From Lepidurus packardi (Eukaryota > Arthropoda > Branchiopoda > Notostraca > Triopsidae), in NCBI GenBank assembly GCA_023053545.1, contig JAKZAN010000007.1:8370001-8434000 (forward strand): DNA of 64,000 nucleotides, written 5' to 3'. The notes under the pieces are model-generated. The model did no database searches, was not told the DNA's origin, and worked only from the letters and a program-made list of their open reading frames with translations. Every line of letters begins with the position of its first letter. Position 1 is the stretch's first letter. Below are positions 52,046 to 64,000 of the stretch, piece after piece. A program made the translations under genes and the position numbers.

Positions 52046-53400
52046 GCACGTTTTTGTTATTGCTGCAAGCAAAACTAAAGCACTGAAGCTTGTTGAAATT
52101 GACTGTCCTTTATCGATTTACAAGGGCTTTGCAAAACATAATAACACCAACACTGTAAAGTGCCTATCTTATCAGTTATGCGTATGAAACTACAGTATTC
52201 GACCAAAGTCTTGGTAACTCTTTTGTACTATGACCTACTGCACAACTCTTTGCATGATCCCGTCGAAATTGAACGCTACCGAACGCTTCCCATCAGACCA
52301 GGCGGGAACTCGTGGCATTAGGTCAGCCTGCCTTGGCACAACGACGCATTAGGAACAATGAAATGCAAGCGAATGTTGCTCTGAATGGGGAGCAACATGC
52401 ATCCTGTTAGTACGGCTTGATATTATAACACGAACGGTAATGGCTGTCCTCGACCACATAGTGAATGCAAATGAATAGTGAATAGGTTGTTTAGTTTTTG
52501 TTATTGCTGCAAGCAAAACTAAAGCACTGAAGCTTGTAGAAATTGACTGTCCTTTATCGATTTACAAGGGCTTTGCTAAACATAATAACACCAACACTGT
52601 AAACTGCTTATCTTATCAGTTATGCGTATGAAATTACAGTATTCGACCTATTACTTACTAATATACTTATTATTTATTACTATGACTTATTGCACAACTC
52701 TTTGCATGTTCCCGTCGAACTTGAAAGCTACCGAACGCTTCCCATCAGACCAGGCGGGAACTCGTGGCATTAGGTCAGCCTGCCTTGGCACAACGACGCA
52801 TTAGGAACAATGAAATGCAAGCGAATGTTGCTCTGAATCCGGAGCAACATGCATCCTGTTACTTCGGCTTGATATTACAACACGAACGGTAATGTCTGTC
52901 CTCGACCGCATAGTGTATGCAAATGAATAGTGAATAGGTTGTTTAGTTTTTGTTATTGCTGCAAGCAAAACTAAAGCACCGAAGCTAGTTAAAATTGACT
53001 GTCTTTTATGGATTTACAAGGGCTTTGCTAAACATAATAACACCCACACTGCAAAGTGCCTATCTTATCAGTTATGCGTATGAAACTACAGTATTCGACC
53101 AAAGTCTTGGTAACTCTTTTGTACTATGACTTATTGCACAACTCTTTGCATGGTCCCGTCGAACTTGAAAGCTACCGAACGCTTCCCATCAGACCAAGCG
53201 GGAACTCGTGGCATTAGGTCAGCCTGCCTTGGCACAACGACGCATTAGGAACAATGAAATGCAAGCGAATGTTGCTCTGAATCCGGAGCAACATGCATCC
53301 TGTTACTTCGGCTTGCTATTACAACACGAACGGTAATGGCTGTCCTCGACCGCATAGTGAATGCAAATGAATAGTGAATACAGTGAATAGGTTGTTTAGT
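52046..53400 (+). repeat. Tandem array, three copies of a ~450-bp unit
   Basis: The phrase GTTTTTGTTATTGCTGCAAGC recurs at about 52050, 52494 and 52946, so the units are about 444, 452 and 455 bp. They stay similar throughout, including GCGGGAACTCGTGGCATTAG and the short hairpin GTTGCTC/GAGCAAC, with small indels (for example a replaced stretch near 52650-52680). There is no conserved ORF across units. It is a satellite-like local array upstream of the receptor gene. Confidence 0.92.
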
Positions 53401-58653: not shown

Positions 58654-59210
58654 GGATTGTGATACATTGCCGAGAAAGTAGTATTGATGGCAATATACAG
58701 CCTATTTGTAATGCTTTATCTCTTGAAAGGACAGTATCAAACTATTTTCAAATTTGCAACCCCTGTATTAACGTTTGTCGTGGCAATGGAATTGAAATAC
58801 AGAATACTTAAATCATATATCTGACATATCTTACTCATTACTCGCTTGTATGTCTTTTCTTATAAAATAACAATTTTCTACAAGCACAGTGTAACGCGAA
58901 TTACGCTTCATCTTGAATCCGTTGGTAGATGACTGGAAGAACGACTTATGTCCGCTGGTGTAATTTCGACTATAAAATCTAGGAAAATACCTTATTATTT
59001 TGCATTTTTTTCTTTTAATCAGCAGTAGTTAGAGGATACATTTCTTAATTAGCGTCAATTATAATGGCTTATATACATTTTTCTCGTAAGTTTCATAACC
59101 CTCCAAAAGTTCCATTCGAATAGGCAAGTTCTGCCACCTATCGAGGAAACTTATAACTGTTTGTGCATTTTGGCGCTACCGGTCATAATAGCCCGCCATA
59201 TTCTTTTTTT
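58654..59210. other. 3' flank of the receptor gene
   Basis: AT-rich; no further coding exon. No canonical AATAAA was identified close to the stop. Confidence 0.4.
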
Positions 59211-59558
59211 AGCTGTGACAACAGCTTAATATATCGTCCAGACTTTAGCCTTGCCAGTGGGAGGGTGGGTTGCTGAGCTTGGCTCGGGTTTTTCCCATAA
59301 GGGCTGTGTTATTTTGGGGTGGGTTTGGTGGGTGGGAGATAAGGACATATTGCCATCGGCCAGGTCGTTCGTGCTCCTTTCATGAGATTCTCAGAAGTGG
59401 GCAAATTGGATCACAAAACGGGTTAGAACGTACCAGCACGTGATAGTTTTTGGGCTTGTGACGTCACGTCTGTAGGATCAATAGGACAGGGTAGCAGATC
59501 AACGTTGGTAAACGTTTGTTATTAGCTGTGACAAAAGCTTACTATATCGTGCAGAGTT
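59211..59558 (+). repeat. Two direct copies of a ~35-bp element upstream of the RPA-like gene
   Basis: AGCTGTGACAACAGCTTAAT at 59211, continuing ATATCGTCCAGACTTT, and AGCTGTGACAAAAGCTTACT at 59524, continuing ATATCGTGCAGAGTTT, match at about 31 of 36 positions and are 313 bp apart. They share the AGCTGTGA word that recurs in inverted orientation downstream of the gene. Confidence 0.85.
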
Positions 59559-59650
59559 TGAATTTTATGATTGGACTTTGACCGAACTTGACTTTACGAA
59601 GAACCTACTCTTCCAGGCATCAACTCTACGATAGAACCCGACTATAAAAG
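59437..59650 (+). promoter_or_regulatory. Promoter of the RPA-like gene (E-box, CRE, TATA)
   Basis: CACGTG at 59437-59442, the CRE palindrome TGACGTCA at 59459-59466 and TATAAAAG at 59643-59650 precede the transcript; initiation is expected near 59675. The TATA box and the spliced leader behind it make a clear polymerase II promoter. Confidence 0.65.
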
Positions 59651-59783
59651 ACCTCACACGGAATGACAGAAAACAGTCCACTCACAGCTCCCAAACACTA
59701 AGTGCAAATCAATCATCATACAGTTCCAAAAAAGAAATTGAAAGCAATTTCACCTCACCATTCCGAAACACCCTATTGCAAAA

Positions 59784-59871
59784 GTAAGTAAATAGTTTCA
59801 TTTCACAACTTTTTAATCCAATAGTTCTTCACTGCAACTCTTCTCATCATGTCTTATTCTCTTTCCACCAG
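59784..59871 (+). other. 5' UTR intron of the RPA-like gene
   Basis: Strong donor AAA/GTAAGTA and a pyrimidine-rich acceptor TTCTCTTTCCACCAG, 88 bp, ending 11 bp before the ATG at 59883. A spliced leader argues against a recent retrocopy. Confidence 0.65.
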
Positions 59872-59882
59872 AAACGGCAACC

Positions 59883-60938
59883 ATGGGAGCAGACGCTTAC
59901 ACCGGGTACGTCCATGACATAACCCCTTTGCGCCAAAACCAGAGTCCATCGAAGTACACCAAAATTCCAGGCCAAAATTTTCGCTTTTTTCTGCAGACGT
60001 CGGACAATACATACGAAGAATGTTTGTCGTTTATTGCTGGCTCCTATAGCAGAATTAAACGTTATTCGACCGCCAAGATACCCATCACCATCCAAATCCT
60101 ACCGAATAGCTCACCTTCAGGTCAGACTCCACAAAAAAGAACTAAATACGATCTTATTAAGATTACCCAATCTTCGCAAATCAGCGAGACAAATCAAACG
60201 CTCAAATTTAATTATTCGCCAAGAAAACAGCAACAAGCCACACTTCAAACTTGTATAGAGTTTCCCGACACCCGTTACAAAATCATCGTTCAAATCCAAA
60301 ACATTAGCGAAGAGAAGACAACGAACAAAGGGCAAACGTTCCGCGAAATAACAATTGGAGACGATACCTGTACTTCCACACTAATTACCTGGAAAAACCA
60401 AACAGTTACTATCGAAAAAAACAAAGTTTACGAAATTACCGATGTCATCTATAATCAAGATTATCAAAACTTCGCCTTGACGCAGCAATCGTTCTTTACA
60501 AGAACAGAAGCCCAACTGGACATCCAGCAACCCATTTTAGACGACACAACGGAGCCCATCATACTGGAAGCCATAGCCCACTGCAACATTGGTATTTTCC
60601 AAACCTGCCTAGCCTGCAAAAAAAAAACAGAACGACAACCGACCATTCCAGATAACGATGACCCTACCATTACGTGCACAAACTGCAAAAAAATTCAACT
60701 TAGACAAACGACTCCACTAACTTTCCAAGGCACAGTGGGTTTCTTCAACGATAATAACATTATCGAAGCATCGATGACAGAAACCATACTAAAAGACTTC
60801 TGCAAACAAGAAGAAACTCTACAACTGACTCCAGACACTGCGAATGCTGTCATCGTGAAATTACTAACGACAAAAGACTTCGACTTCACGGTAGACCTAG
60901 AAAAAAAAGAAATCGTCAACGTCACCAAGAAAAAATAA
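59883..60938 (+). CDS. RPA-like single-strand DNA-binding protein (OB fold with zinc ribbon)
   Basis: One uninterrupted frame of 351 codons plus TAA with a strong start context (CAACCATGG). It resembles the large subunit of replication protein A: beta-rich OB-type stretches such as YKIIVQIQNISEE, FREITIGDDTCTSTLITW and EKNKVYEITDVIYNQDYQNF, and a four-cysteine metal site, Cys242-x2-Cys245 and Cys265-x2-Cys268, like the zinc ribbon of RPA70 domain C. It is far shorter than RPA70 (about 600 aa) and lacks the N-terminal protein-interaction domain, so it is not the housekeeping subunit. Codons are strikingly A-rich (runs of AAA, AAC, CAA, GAA) unlike neighbouring genes. It may be a domesticated gene from a mobile element (some Helitrons carry RPA-like ORFs) or a lineage-specific paralogue. 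The RPA-like call is by eye. Confidence 0.75.
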   Translation: MGADAYTGYVHDITPLRQNQSPSKYTKIPGQNFRFFLQTSDNTYEECLSFIAGSYSRIKRYSTAKIPITIQILPNSSPSGQTPQKRTKYDLIKITQSSQISETNQTLKFNYSPRKQQQATLQTCIEFPDTRYKIIVQIQNISEEKTTNKGQTFREITIGDDTCTSTLITWKNQTVTIEKNKVYEITDVIYNQDYQNFALTQQSFFTRTEAQLDIQQPILDDTTEPIILEAIAHCNIGIFQTCLACKKKTERQPTIPDNDDPTITCTNCKKIQLRQTTPLTFQGTVGFFNDNNIIEASMTETILKDFCKQEETLQLTPDTANAVIVKLLTTKDFDFTVDLEKKEIVNVTKKK

Positions 60939-61076
60939 TATTGTTTTGTCAACATTTTTATTCTAAATAACCTAGATTTGTATTTGCATTGCATGTAATA
61001 GTGAATTCACTGTATTAGCGAAAAACTTACAAAATATATATCTACCAATAACGCAAATGTCTTCTGATATTATAAT

Positions 61077-61560
61077 CACAGCTAATAACATTAATAAAAA
61101 TCACAGCTAAAAAGCAAACCATTAAAACATGCCAATAAAAAAAAAAAAAAAAACATGCAATTTCAGTTCGTTATCGTTTCGCATTTGGTTCGCATTTTAA
61201 TTCGCATTTCTGATAAATTTTGATACAACTTAATATCTATTGATAAATGCTTTGATACATATAACTTGATAACATTTCATATTTTTACTGACCATCTTTT
61301 CTCCTATCAGTCAAGTCCGTTTTCTGCTCTATATCAAATAGTTTTAGGACTTACAGAATACCATAATTAATGCCATAATAATGACATGACATCAAACAAA
61401 GCCGTTTCTTTAAAAATCAACAGTACATAAAAATCATAGACTGGCACAGCTAAAAACCTCTACACATTTCAAAATCGACCACAACAGACCACCAACAGAC
61501 GAACCCAGAACAGCCACCTACCCACGTTCACCACTACTAACATTCCGTTGTCACAGCTTA
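61077..61560 (-). repeat. Inverted AGCTGTGA motif copies downstream of the RPA-like gene
   Basis: TCACAGCT occurs at 61077-61084, 61101-61108 and 61551-61558, with a shorter CACAGCT at 61445-61451. Three of these extend to TAGCTGTGA or TAGCTGTG on the minus strand, and the outermost to AGCTGTGACAAC. All are inverted relative to the two copies upstream of the gene. Confidence 0.75.
61135..61155 (+). repeat. Poly(A) run flanked by ACATGC
   Basis: An AATAAA merges into about 17 adenines, with AACATGCC before and ACATGCAA after. It looks like a retroposition tail or a simple homopolymer; no source gene can be assigned. Confidence 0.5.
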
Positions 61561-61570
61561 TTCGGCAGTC

Positions 61571-64000
61571 CAACCTGTCGTCTTGTATGTCTTGGTTGTT
61601 GGTCATGCTGATATTGCGTGAGCAGAATTGGCATTTTTAAATCTTAAATATACAACTTACAAGTGTTTTGTAAATTTCTTCAAAATATTAGTTCGTGCAT
61701 AAGCTAAAAGGGCAGGTACTGGACATACCTAGAATGTTGAGAAGTTCTTGGGACATTTATTCATTTTGCCAACGTCATTCGCCTTGACACGCAATGGAAA
61801 CCTGGCATGGATCCGTCCTGGAGCCGATTTTTACAGCTGTACTAGCGTTTACAAGGTATGATGTCATATTTATTTTCTTGCCATTTTCACTTTTATCTCA
61901 ATGACTTGAGTCACTTAATGTTAAAACTTGATTCACTTAATGCAGCTTCCCACCCTAAATTGAGCTAAAGATACGCAACAATTTACCCAACTGTATTTTC
62001 CTCCTAGCCGAGTTCCAGAAACTTCGAATTCCAGACGTAATACTTTAAGTCCGTCAACATGAATCAGTTACACACATTTTCTGTTTTCCCTTGGATTAAC
62101 GATATTCAAGAGTTCGTTGTGGCCCACCCAAACATCACCCCAGTGGCATTAATGACCGTATAACGTCCTCCAGATTATTAAGTATCTAATTTCTAATTTT
62201 AATTTGTTCAAGTTTAAAGCAAGTCTTTCTTATATGAGAATAGGTTGGGTTTCGATCTAACCCAGTTTAGCAAGTGATCCTCGTCACGTGAAACTGAAAC
62301 GCCACGCGTCATGACGAACACATCCTTAGGGCATGTATTGGGACTTTGTTATTCTTTGCAGAGAACGCATGGCATTTCGTGTCTGGTAAATTATCCCATG
62401 GGAAACTTGGGCGCCTACACCCGTTCTTGGTTTTGTTATTAACGAAATGTTACCTTGGAGGCTTGTCTGTCTGTCTGTCTGTCTCTGTCTCTGGTAAAGG
62501 CTAATCACTGCGCCTCTTCTGTAAGTTAGTACTGCTCAACGTTTCCTGCATTTGGACAGCACATGACGTTCCCCTAACTTGTTGCTCATTTATTCGATAA
62601 CTTGGCAAAGGTTATGTCTCTACGTCAAACTAAAAAAAAATGTGTTTCCCTCAAATGAACTCAAATGTTTCCCTCAAATGAACATGTGTGCTTCAGCCTC
62701 CAAGAACCTAATTATGTATGCTCTAATTTGGCACATTGTTCCTAAATTAAGATCTATTTTTGCTTTCATTATCTTACTTTTTCTTGTTTGATTCATTCTT
62801 AGTTACCAAAGAAAATAAACAGTTTATTTCCCAACGCCAATTGCTCTATTTTCGAGCAAAAGTTGCGCTCGCTTAGAAAATATAACTTTGAATACTTTTA
62901 GAGTTATCGAAGTTTTCGTAGGCGCAACTTTGGAGGTATTGAACTATATTATTAGTAAAGTTGATGGAGGCCCAAAGTAAGCTCATAGTGCTATTCTTGT
63001 GATCTTTAGCAAGAAAGGAAGTGTTCTTATTTTTTTTTTAGGGGGAGAAAGTTGGCAATTACCGTTTTTGCGTCCCCTCCCCATAATTGCTCCATCAGCT
63101 CATTTGGGACGGGTGCCAGAATCATTAGTTTTAATTTGACCAGCTCCAGCGCGCAGTTAAATAGCATATCTAAGATCGATTAAAGCCTCCTCACACAATA
63201 GGGCCATGTCTTAGCGTCTGTTAGTTTTGCTTGATGACTCTCGGGCCAGTACATGGAAAACGGACATCTATCTCCGGCAGTGGACTCCATTTACCGTCTA
63301 CTTGCTGTAGGCAAACAGAAATGCGAGTACCAGTCAGTTTCTCTCGTCTCTCTATTTCTCCACTTATTAACAAATATAGCATTGCCTTTCGAAGAGAACT
63401 TGGACCTTGTTTTTACCCCAGGAAGGCTTCTGTCTTTGCTTTATAGATCGCGTCCCCCCAAAAAAGAAGCATTTGGGAAGCTTTTAAAGGTCCAGACAAA
63501 AGGGAACGGTCGACTTTTCAATAAGTTCTGAAGACAATTAAAGTTTCCAAAGCAAAAAAATCACGAAAAAGGGAAAAGGTTCGAAGCGCAGCCAAACAAA
63601 AACTTCAGTTTCATGGGTAGCGAGCCCTGGCTGGCTTAACCCCGCCCCTTTTTGCTTCGTACACTTTGTACTCTCAAAAGCTTTTGAGTTCCTCGATAAT
63701 TTACTTCCTTTTACTGCGAGGTCGTTAGCAATACTTTTCAGAACCTCCTTTCTCGCTTTTGTACACCTGGCTTTTTGGTTAAAAATATCAAATAAAACTC
63801 CTCCCCCAAATTATTGAGTGATTTTGTAGCCGCATGACTGGAAAAAGTAAGCTTTTATGTTGTAAAATGATACGCCTCTAACCGTGCTCTTTTTAATACC
63901 TATTTTCAGCAAATCGGTTCCAAACTTCCTGAAGCGGTACCAAAAACGCTTTGCAACACCTCCCTTTTTTGGAAAAAAGGGCTTTTTTGACGAGGGGCAA
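61571..64000. other. No gene recognised to window end
   Basis: Contains a (CTGT)n microsatellite at about 62464-62492 and short ORFs without domains (longest ATG frame 63253-63531, 92 codons). Genes that continue past the window cannot be excluded. Confidence 0.5.

Follow-up and report, generated by a model that had tools for sequence, protein, structure and literature searches.

A short RPA-retaining element with Helentron-type features in the genome of Lepidurus packardi

A repeated motif on both sides of an RPA-like gene

In the 64,000-nucleotide stretch of Lepidurus packardi DNA analysed here (the window), a gene for a 351-amino-acid protein is bracketed by inverted copies of the short motif AGCTGTGA. 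This raises the question whether the locus is a mobile unit that uses the motif as an end or a single gene that is bound by its own product, the two readings put forward in an earlier note on this DNA. Exact copies of the motif are present at 59211 and 59524 on the forward strand and at 59682-59689, 61076, 61101 and 61551 on the reverse strand, and all six exact copies in the window fall within 59209-61586. By chance, 1.46 copies would be expected in the whole window, and none of 100 dinucleotide shuffles contained six or more; for the 2378 bp alone, a first-order simulation gave a mean of 0.05 copies and never six or more in 4001 runs. The observation is thereby confirmed. The earlier note had placed the copies at 59211, 59524, 61101 and 61551 correctly, whereas its copy at 61077 starts at 61076 and the reverse copy at 59682-59689 had been overlooked. 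The partial copy that it saw near 61445 is real (TGGCACAGCTAAAAA at 61442-61456), and the outer pair indeed shares exactly 12 bp (AGCTGTGACAAC at 59211-59222 and GTTGTCACAGCT at 61547-61558). A repeat search showed in addition that 59206-59246 matches 59519-59559 at 88% across 41 nt and that 61076-61090 is the exact inverse of 59517-59531.

The 351-amino-acid frame was confirmed at 59883-60938 on the forward strand, and a family alignment together with fold hits that include RPA among other OB-fold proteins points to an RPA70-like gene. Its predicted fold consists of tandem OB folds resembling those of RPA70. The description as RPA-like is borne out by the predicted fold and not by Pfam, which returned no RPA match for the protein (the best match was PHD_4 with an E value of 0.064). 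The product is probably a single-stranded-DNA-binding protein. PHROGs gave weak matches only, the best with an E value of 0.0098 over 12 residues, no relatives were confirmed in viral contigs with six peptide patterns (one pattern match failed in tblastn), and tblastn found none in plasmid records. Rfam had nothing at gathering scores in window positions 30000-64000. Other frames of the window match Neur_chan, Transglut_N and PDZ in Pfam, which points to an animal host, and three tandem copies of a 444-bp unit with 92% matches are located at 52050-53380.

Limits, ends and target of the element

A BLAST comparison of the window region with the first 30 loci, the window copy among them, revealed common limits at approximately 59209 and 61586, which are uncertain by one or two T because both flanks are T. 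The two flanks of the window copy each match only themselves in the genome. A search with the 3´ part found 35 places, and after exclusion of two at 81-82% identity, 33 remained at 99-100%; a search with the 5´ part found 40 places (36 at 100%, three at 95% and one over 119 of 192 bases). For every one of the 33 close 3´ ends, a 5´ end is present on the same strand within 30 kb, leaving seven 5´ ends unpaired. The resulting two-ended copies, including the one in the window, are 2,097-19,918 bp long. The proposal of a mobile unit with the motif as its end thus holds: the ends occur in pairs, identity breaks off at the motif-bearing ends, and the flanks of the window copy are single-copy. A lone host gene whose product binds the repeated motif and so regulates it would fit an OB-fold protein with the motif on both sides of its gene; however, as a full explanation this is refuted by the 33 two-ended places, and the outer motifs at the limits of identity and the single-copy flanks also speak against it, so that we consider it highly improbable. 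A single-copy gene, which according to the earlier note would have spoken against the mobile unit, is not what the genome contains: the protein matches 62 places in the 108.6 Mb. Binding of the protein to the element ends is possible.

The 5´ end of the mobile unit carries the asymmetric terminal inverted repeat AGCTGTGACAAC (59211-59222), which matches 61547-61558 exactly in inverse orientation, within a terminal hairpin AGCTGT-GACA-ACAGCT at 59211-59226. DNA folding gave this hairpin -5.2 kcal/mol and a z score of -2.77, and four of 200 shuffles fold as well. At the other end, the reverse-strand repeat at 61547-61558, supported by the end alignments, is located approximately 27 bp inside the 3´ end and is followed at 61563-61580 by the stem CGGCAG-TCCAAC-CTGTCG with six pairs. 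With -2.8 kcal/mol and z scores of -0.34 and -0.76, the energy of this stem is no better than that of shuffles; the stem is retained in a sister subfamily (subfamily B). AGCTGTGA is the terminal signal, with its 5´ copy in the hairpin and its inverted 3´ copy just before the second stem.

The 3´ end was obtained in 28 of the first 30 loci and reads GTTGTCACAGCTTATTCGGCAGTCCAACCTGTCGTCTTG followed by T in all 28 (with one change in L009), TGT continuing after TCT in each of them. For the 5´ end, 13 of these loci could be counted, the remaining ones having been fetched less far upstream; all 13 read TT-AGCTGTGACAACAGCTTAATATATCG and have a T at position -5, and three further 5´ ends from long copies agree with them. 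The target duplication that the earlier note suggested to look for at the copy edges is absent in 13 of 13 loci, and their flanks have no word longer than four bases in common. No empty allele turned up, and the exact insertion point is thus not fixed. A cut-and-paste transposon with terminal inverted repeats would account for inverted motif copies at both ends, yet here the repeats are asymmetric (one approximately 2 bp, the other approximately 27 bp inside its end), target duplications are absent in 13 of 13 loci, and the long relative described below encodes a Rep-helicase-endonuclease in the frame that was searched against Pfam; hardly any weight can be given to this reading.

The role of the motif as an end applies to the outer copies, whereas some inner copies are fossil or unexplained end-like sequences. 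The forward-strand stretch 59519-59559, which lies 313 bp inside the element and has a decayed hairpin, is a fossil inner 5´ end according to its 88% likeness to 59206-59246. This inner end occurs at 39 genome sites (38 exact, one with one mismatch), all of them 313-323 bp downstream of an outer end, and with up to two mismatches allowed no site was found in the genome at which it is used alone. On the reverse strand, the repeat search revealed two inverted end-like motifs at 61076-61108 (starting at 61076 and 61101), and the sequence at 61442-61456 (TTAGCTGTGCCAGTC...) resembles, when compared by eye, a 5´ end of subfamily B. These inverted sequences of the 3´ part (window 61074-61115 and 61442-61456), two resembling subfamily A and one subfamily B, are also present in the 19.5-kb copy. 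Elsewhere in the genome, pairs of 5´ ends are located on the same strand 39-64 bp apart (C1:6325698/6325737, C3:6270078/6270137, C19:5936/5981, C4:339077/339118, C8:160377/160418 and C2:13496419/13496483), as if new insertions had occurred just upstream of old ones.

A long relative, the internal deletion and the class of the element

On contig C1, a copy of 19,490 bp (C1:13275094-13294583) starts and ends with sequences identical to those of the window copy and contains one open frame of 2722 codons in addition to the frame for the same 351-amino-acid protein. The long frame was searched against Pfam as two pieces, together 2721 codons. The first piece has a C2H2 finger over the cut-off; the second has DUF6570, Helitron_like_N (79.7 bits), PIF1 (87.7 bits) and Exo_endo_phos (26.6 bits, cut-off 24.5), each over the cut-off. 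The frame also carries PHIHLF, YIASY and GGAGTGKS, which we read as motifs of the Rep (HUH, two Tyr) and PIF1 helicase domains, and near its C-terminus GDFN and SDH, which we take to be motifs of an AP-type endonuclease. A weak match to Herpes_teg_N, a domain of peptidase type, was seen in the first piece below the cut-off.

The long frame is separated from the RPA gene by 8,252 bp with 37% GC and a longest stop-free stretch of 127 codons. Here, a 66-amino-acid frame resembles Glyco_hydro_63N with an E value of 3.6e-9. The genome contains 17 such rows: two at one locus on C2 (C2:12035509-12035875), which is likely the host glucosidase I gene, 13 in two-ended copies, and the remaining two on C22 and C32, contigs with an unpaired 5´ end. 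The fragment, similar to the N-terminal part of glucosidase I, thus looks like a captured piece of a host gene; in the long copies it is located, for example, at L056:1059-1256 (C1:13281438-13281647). Short TTAGG arrays were observed inside long copies as well (e.g. C1:13284151-13284190), in at least 11 two-ended copies; TTAGG arrays also end contig C3 at its right end and are long on C86, a repeat unit that suggests an arthropod as host.

Comparison with this long element and with locus L015 places a deletion junction at 59566/59567 of the window, where 17,109 bp are missing. The window copy consists of the first 358 bp of the long element fused to its last 2.0 kb, and it has lost the transposase while keeping both ends and the RPA gene. 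The same junction recurs on contig C4 in L015, which has different flanks and differs from the window copy by one 3-nt indel over 2.38 kb. Since the two share one junction at different sites, the deletion most likely came first and the shortened form then moved by itself. The retained 3´ part begins 316 bp before the ATG and includes, on the forward strand, TATAAAAG at 59643-59650, which may serve the RPA gene as its core promoter, and a probable 5´-UTR intron (GTAAGT...CCACCAG) at 59784-59871. Because both are retained, the RPA gene of the shortened copy could still be expressed.

Taken together, 59209-61586 on the forward strand is with high confidence a recently moved, non-autonomous, RPA-retaining deletion derivative, without Rep-helicase, of a Helentron with Helitron2-type ends, assigned to this class by domains, ends, target and one diagnostic serine. 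The earlier note mentioned neither this class nor the 17.1-kb deletion nor an autonomous parent. In the long relative, the Rep is fused to the PIF1 helicase, and the Helentron label follows from the AP-type endonuclease (Exo_endo_phos) at its C-terminus. Further Helentron characters are inverted subterminal repeats 11 bp or more in length (12 bp here) with an energetically weak 3´ palindrome, insertion in TT without target duplication, though at a point not fixed by an empty site, and an RPA gene inside the 19.5-kb element. Like a HINE, the window copy is a deletion derivative that shares its ends with a long partner. The asymmetric terminal inverted repeats and the hairpins at both ends, the 3´ one weak by energy, are those of Helitron2; however, the endonuclease domain is not. 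A canonical Helitron (Helitron1) would likewise explain the Rep and PIF1 domains of the long relative, but the ends TTAGCTG...TCTTG(T) are located between T residues and carry inverted end repeats, so that ends and flanks lack the 5´ TC, the 3´ CTRR and the insertion between A and T, and the long relative has an endonuclease domain. The probability of this reading is next to nil.

The Helentron assignment agrees with published descriptions. Helentrons insert in the TT dinucleotide (PMC5148889), and the end layout corresponds to the Helitron2/Helentron anatomy of PMC3627910, PMC4067079 and PMC5148889. As in the Helentron of Metaseiulus occidentalis, Rep, helicase and endonuclease are encoded in one frame, and the RPA gene has no introns in its coding part (358 amino acids in the mite, 351 here; PMC4067079). 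Mite Helentrons and HINEs also resemble the present elements in their subterminal inverted repeats of 12-15 bp located 2-4 nt from the 5´ end, their 3´ palindrome, T-rich target and deletion derivatives with common ends (PMC4067079). The distance from the 3´ repeat to the end, in contrast, is approximately 27 bp here and 38-60 bp in mite HINEs, the long element measures approximately 19.5 kb with 8.25 kb between its two genes, and the short form keeps its RPA gene while mite HINEs are said to have no coding capacity (PMC4067079). The same source gives a serine as diagnostic of Helentrons, plus F/Y, w/l/y/k and R near motif 2; the serine is present in VEFQQRGSPHIH of the long copy, whereas the local YAIR does not plainly fit the second diagnostic. 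As in Helitron2, the 5´ repeat is located 0-2 bp from the end within the 5´ hairpin, the 3´ repeat precedes the 3´ hairpin at a distance of 20-30 bp from the end, and the target is T-rich (PMC3627910); unlike Helitron2, which is described without an endonuclease (PMC4067079), the present element has this domain. The element is of a known kind.

In the likely mechanism, drawn from published models, the Rep-helicase-endonuclease would be supplied in trans by the copies of approximately 19.5 kb and would nick at the 5´ end, and a single strand would be peeled off as far as the 3´ hairpin. The peeled strand would enter a T|T site and leave no target duplication, and the single-stranded intermediate would presumably be covered by the RPA protein. 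What we observed for this family are the ends, the T-rich target without duplication, the copies, a long relative with the expected domains, the deletion and a second site with the same deleted form; the nicking, the displacement of a strand, the supply in trans and the part played by RPA are what we infer. Pairing of the two end repeats has been suggested to fix the end of replication (PMC3627910).

RPA genes, short forms and a sister subfamily

Among the 62 places matched by the protein, 23 rows span residues 1-351 with a rounded identity of 100%; two of these rows contain an in-frame stop, and 18 tie at the top score. Subfamily B accounts for 12 further rows at 48%, and weaker groups follow at 31-34% and 24-29%; older pieces are present at 84% (two, with stops) and at 94-97%. 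The start of the gene is present in 24 loci, whose gene stretches fall into seven different DNA versions. In 18 of the 24 loci the encoded protein is identical, in two it is ended early by a stop, C268Y is found in two and V182L in one, and in one the gene breaks off near residue 329. Over alignments of at least 1 kb, the other loci compared are 99.4-99.9% identical to the window copy. By these identities the family is mostly very young, with a few more diverged copies.

Some copies have flanks in common: the 3´ flank in the pairs L004/L008 and L011/L016, the 5´ flank in the pair L010/L027. Several copies are therefore probably duplicated pieces of the assembly, and 33 is an upper count of independent insertions. 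A 3´ read-through was considered for L011/L016 and rejected since their 5´ flanks agree too and L016 enters a run of N; most likely they are one duplicated locus. L010 (C126) and L027 (C6) have more than 8.5 kb of 5´ flank and the element in common and diverge at the element's 3´ end, which an assembly chimera may explain as well as a biological event.

A Rep match was found in 14 of the 33 two-ended copies, two of which are shortened (6.3 and 9.5 kb) and two others have the match split into two rows; 19 have none. At least part of the RPA gene is present in all 33, and 12 of the 19 copies without a Rep match retain a full-length open RPA frame, two of these with C268Y. One might take the RPA-bearing short forms for a selected semi-autonomous class, kept for supplying RPA to the family, and both these counts and the precedent of Mothra in rice (PMC4683698) would agree with that. 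The RPA-only state resembles the "semi-autonomous" Mothra mother element, a plant Helitron whose high-copy derivatives have no RPA gene but tandem repeats; unlike those derivatives, the short forms here arose by deletion and retain RPA in whole or in part. In the literature surveyed, a partial coverage from which many journals are missing, no RPA-only form is described from an animal, and we make no claim of a first. Against selection speaks a 2,097-bp form without the first 47 codons, which occurs twice (L028 and L029) with one and the same junction but different flanks. Because this form with its cut RPA gene sits at two sites, RPA in cis is dispensable for movement. The C268Y form is likewise present at two sites, a weaker point as the change may or may not impair the protein. 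Since the RPA gene adjoins the 3´ end, passive retention suffices and is the simplest reading; selection for supplying RPA is unlikely. It is similarly unlikely that the RPA-only copies function as an intermediate level of autonomy that provides the family with RPA while the Rep-helicase comes from elsewhere; if this were true, transposition would depend on the dose of RPA as well as on the transposase. With full-length, RPA-only and RPA-damaged Helentron forms side by side in one animal genome, a comparison of the forms could test whether element-encoded RPA matters for rolling-circle transposition.

The RPA protein of subfamily B is 48% identical to that of subfamily A, and with a pN of 0.31 and a saturated pS of 0.83 between the two it is conserved. 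The two end repeats show a matched change between the sister subfamilies: the ends of subfamily B carry AGCTGTGCCAG at the 5´ and CTGGCACAGCT at the 3´ side, so that two bases of the 11-bp repeat differ from subfamily A in the same way at both ends. One 3´ end of subfamily B reads CTGGCACAGCTTATTCGACAGTTCATCCTGTCGTCTTG and the B-type 5´ end TTAGCTGTGCCAGTCTATGACTGGGACAGCTTA; the 3´ stem is CGACAG-TTCATC-CTGTCG. For 11 of the 12 3´ ends of subfamily B, a B-type 5´ end is located upstream on the same strand at a distance of 13.4-20.0 kb, and for one there is none. The matched change is as expected for repeats that would have to pair or be read by one protein. The 5´-end pattern matches 99 places in the genome, 28 of B type and 71 of A type. 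Since the 71 A-type hairpins exceed the 40 long 5´ matches, other elements share the A-type 5´ end. At C8:21546-21599 and C46:103364-103417, which may be the same locus, a 5´ end of subfamily A begins where a 3´ end of subfamily B stops, head to tail.
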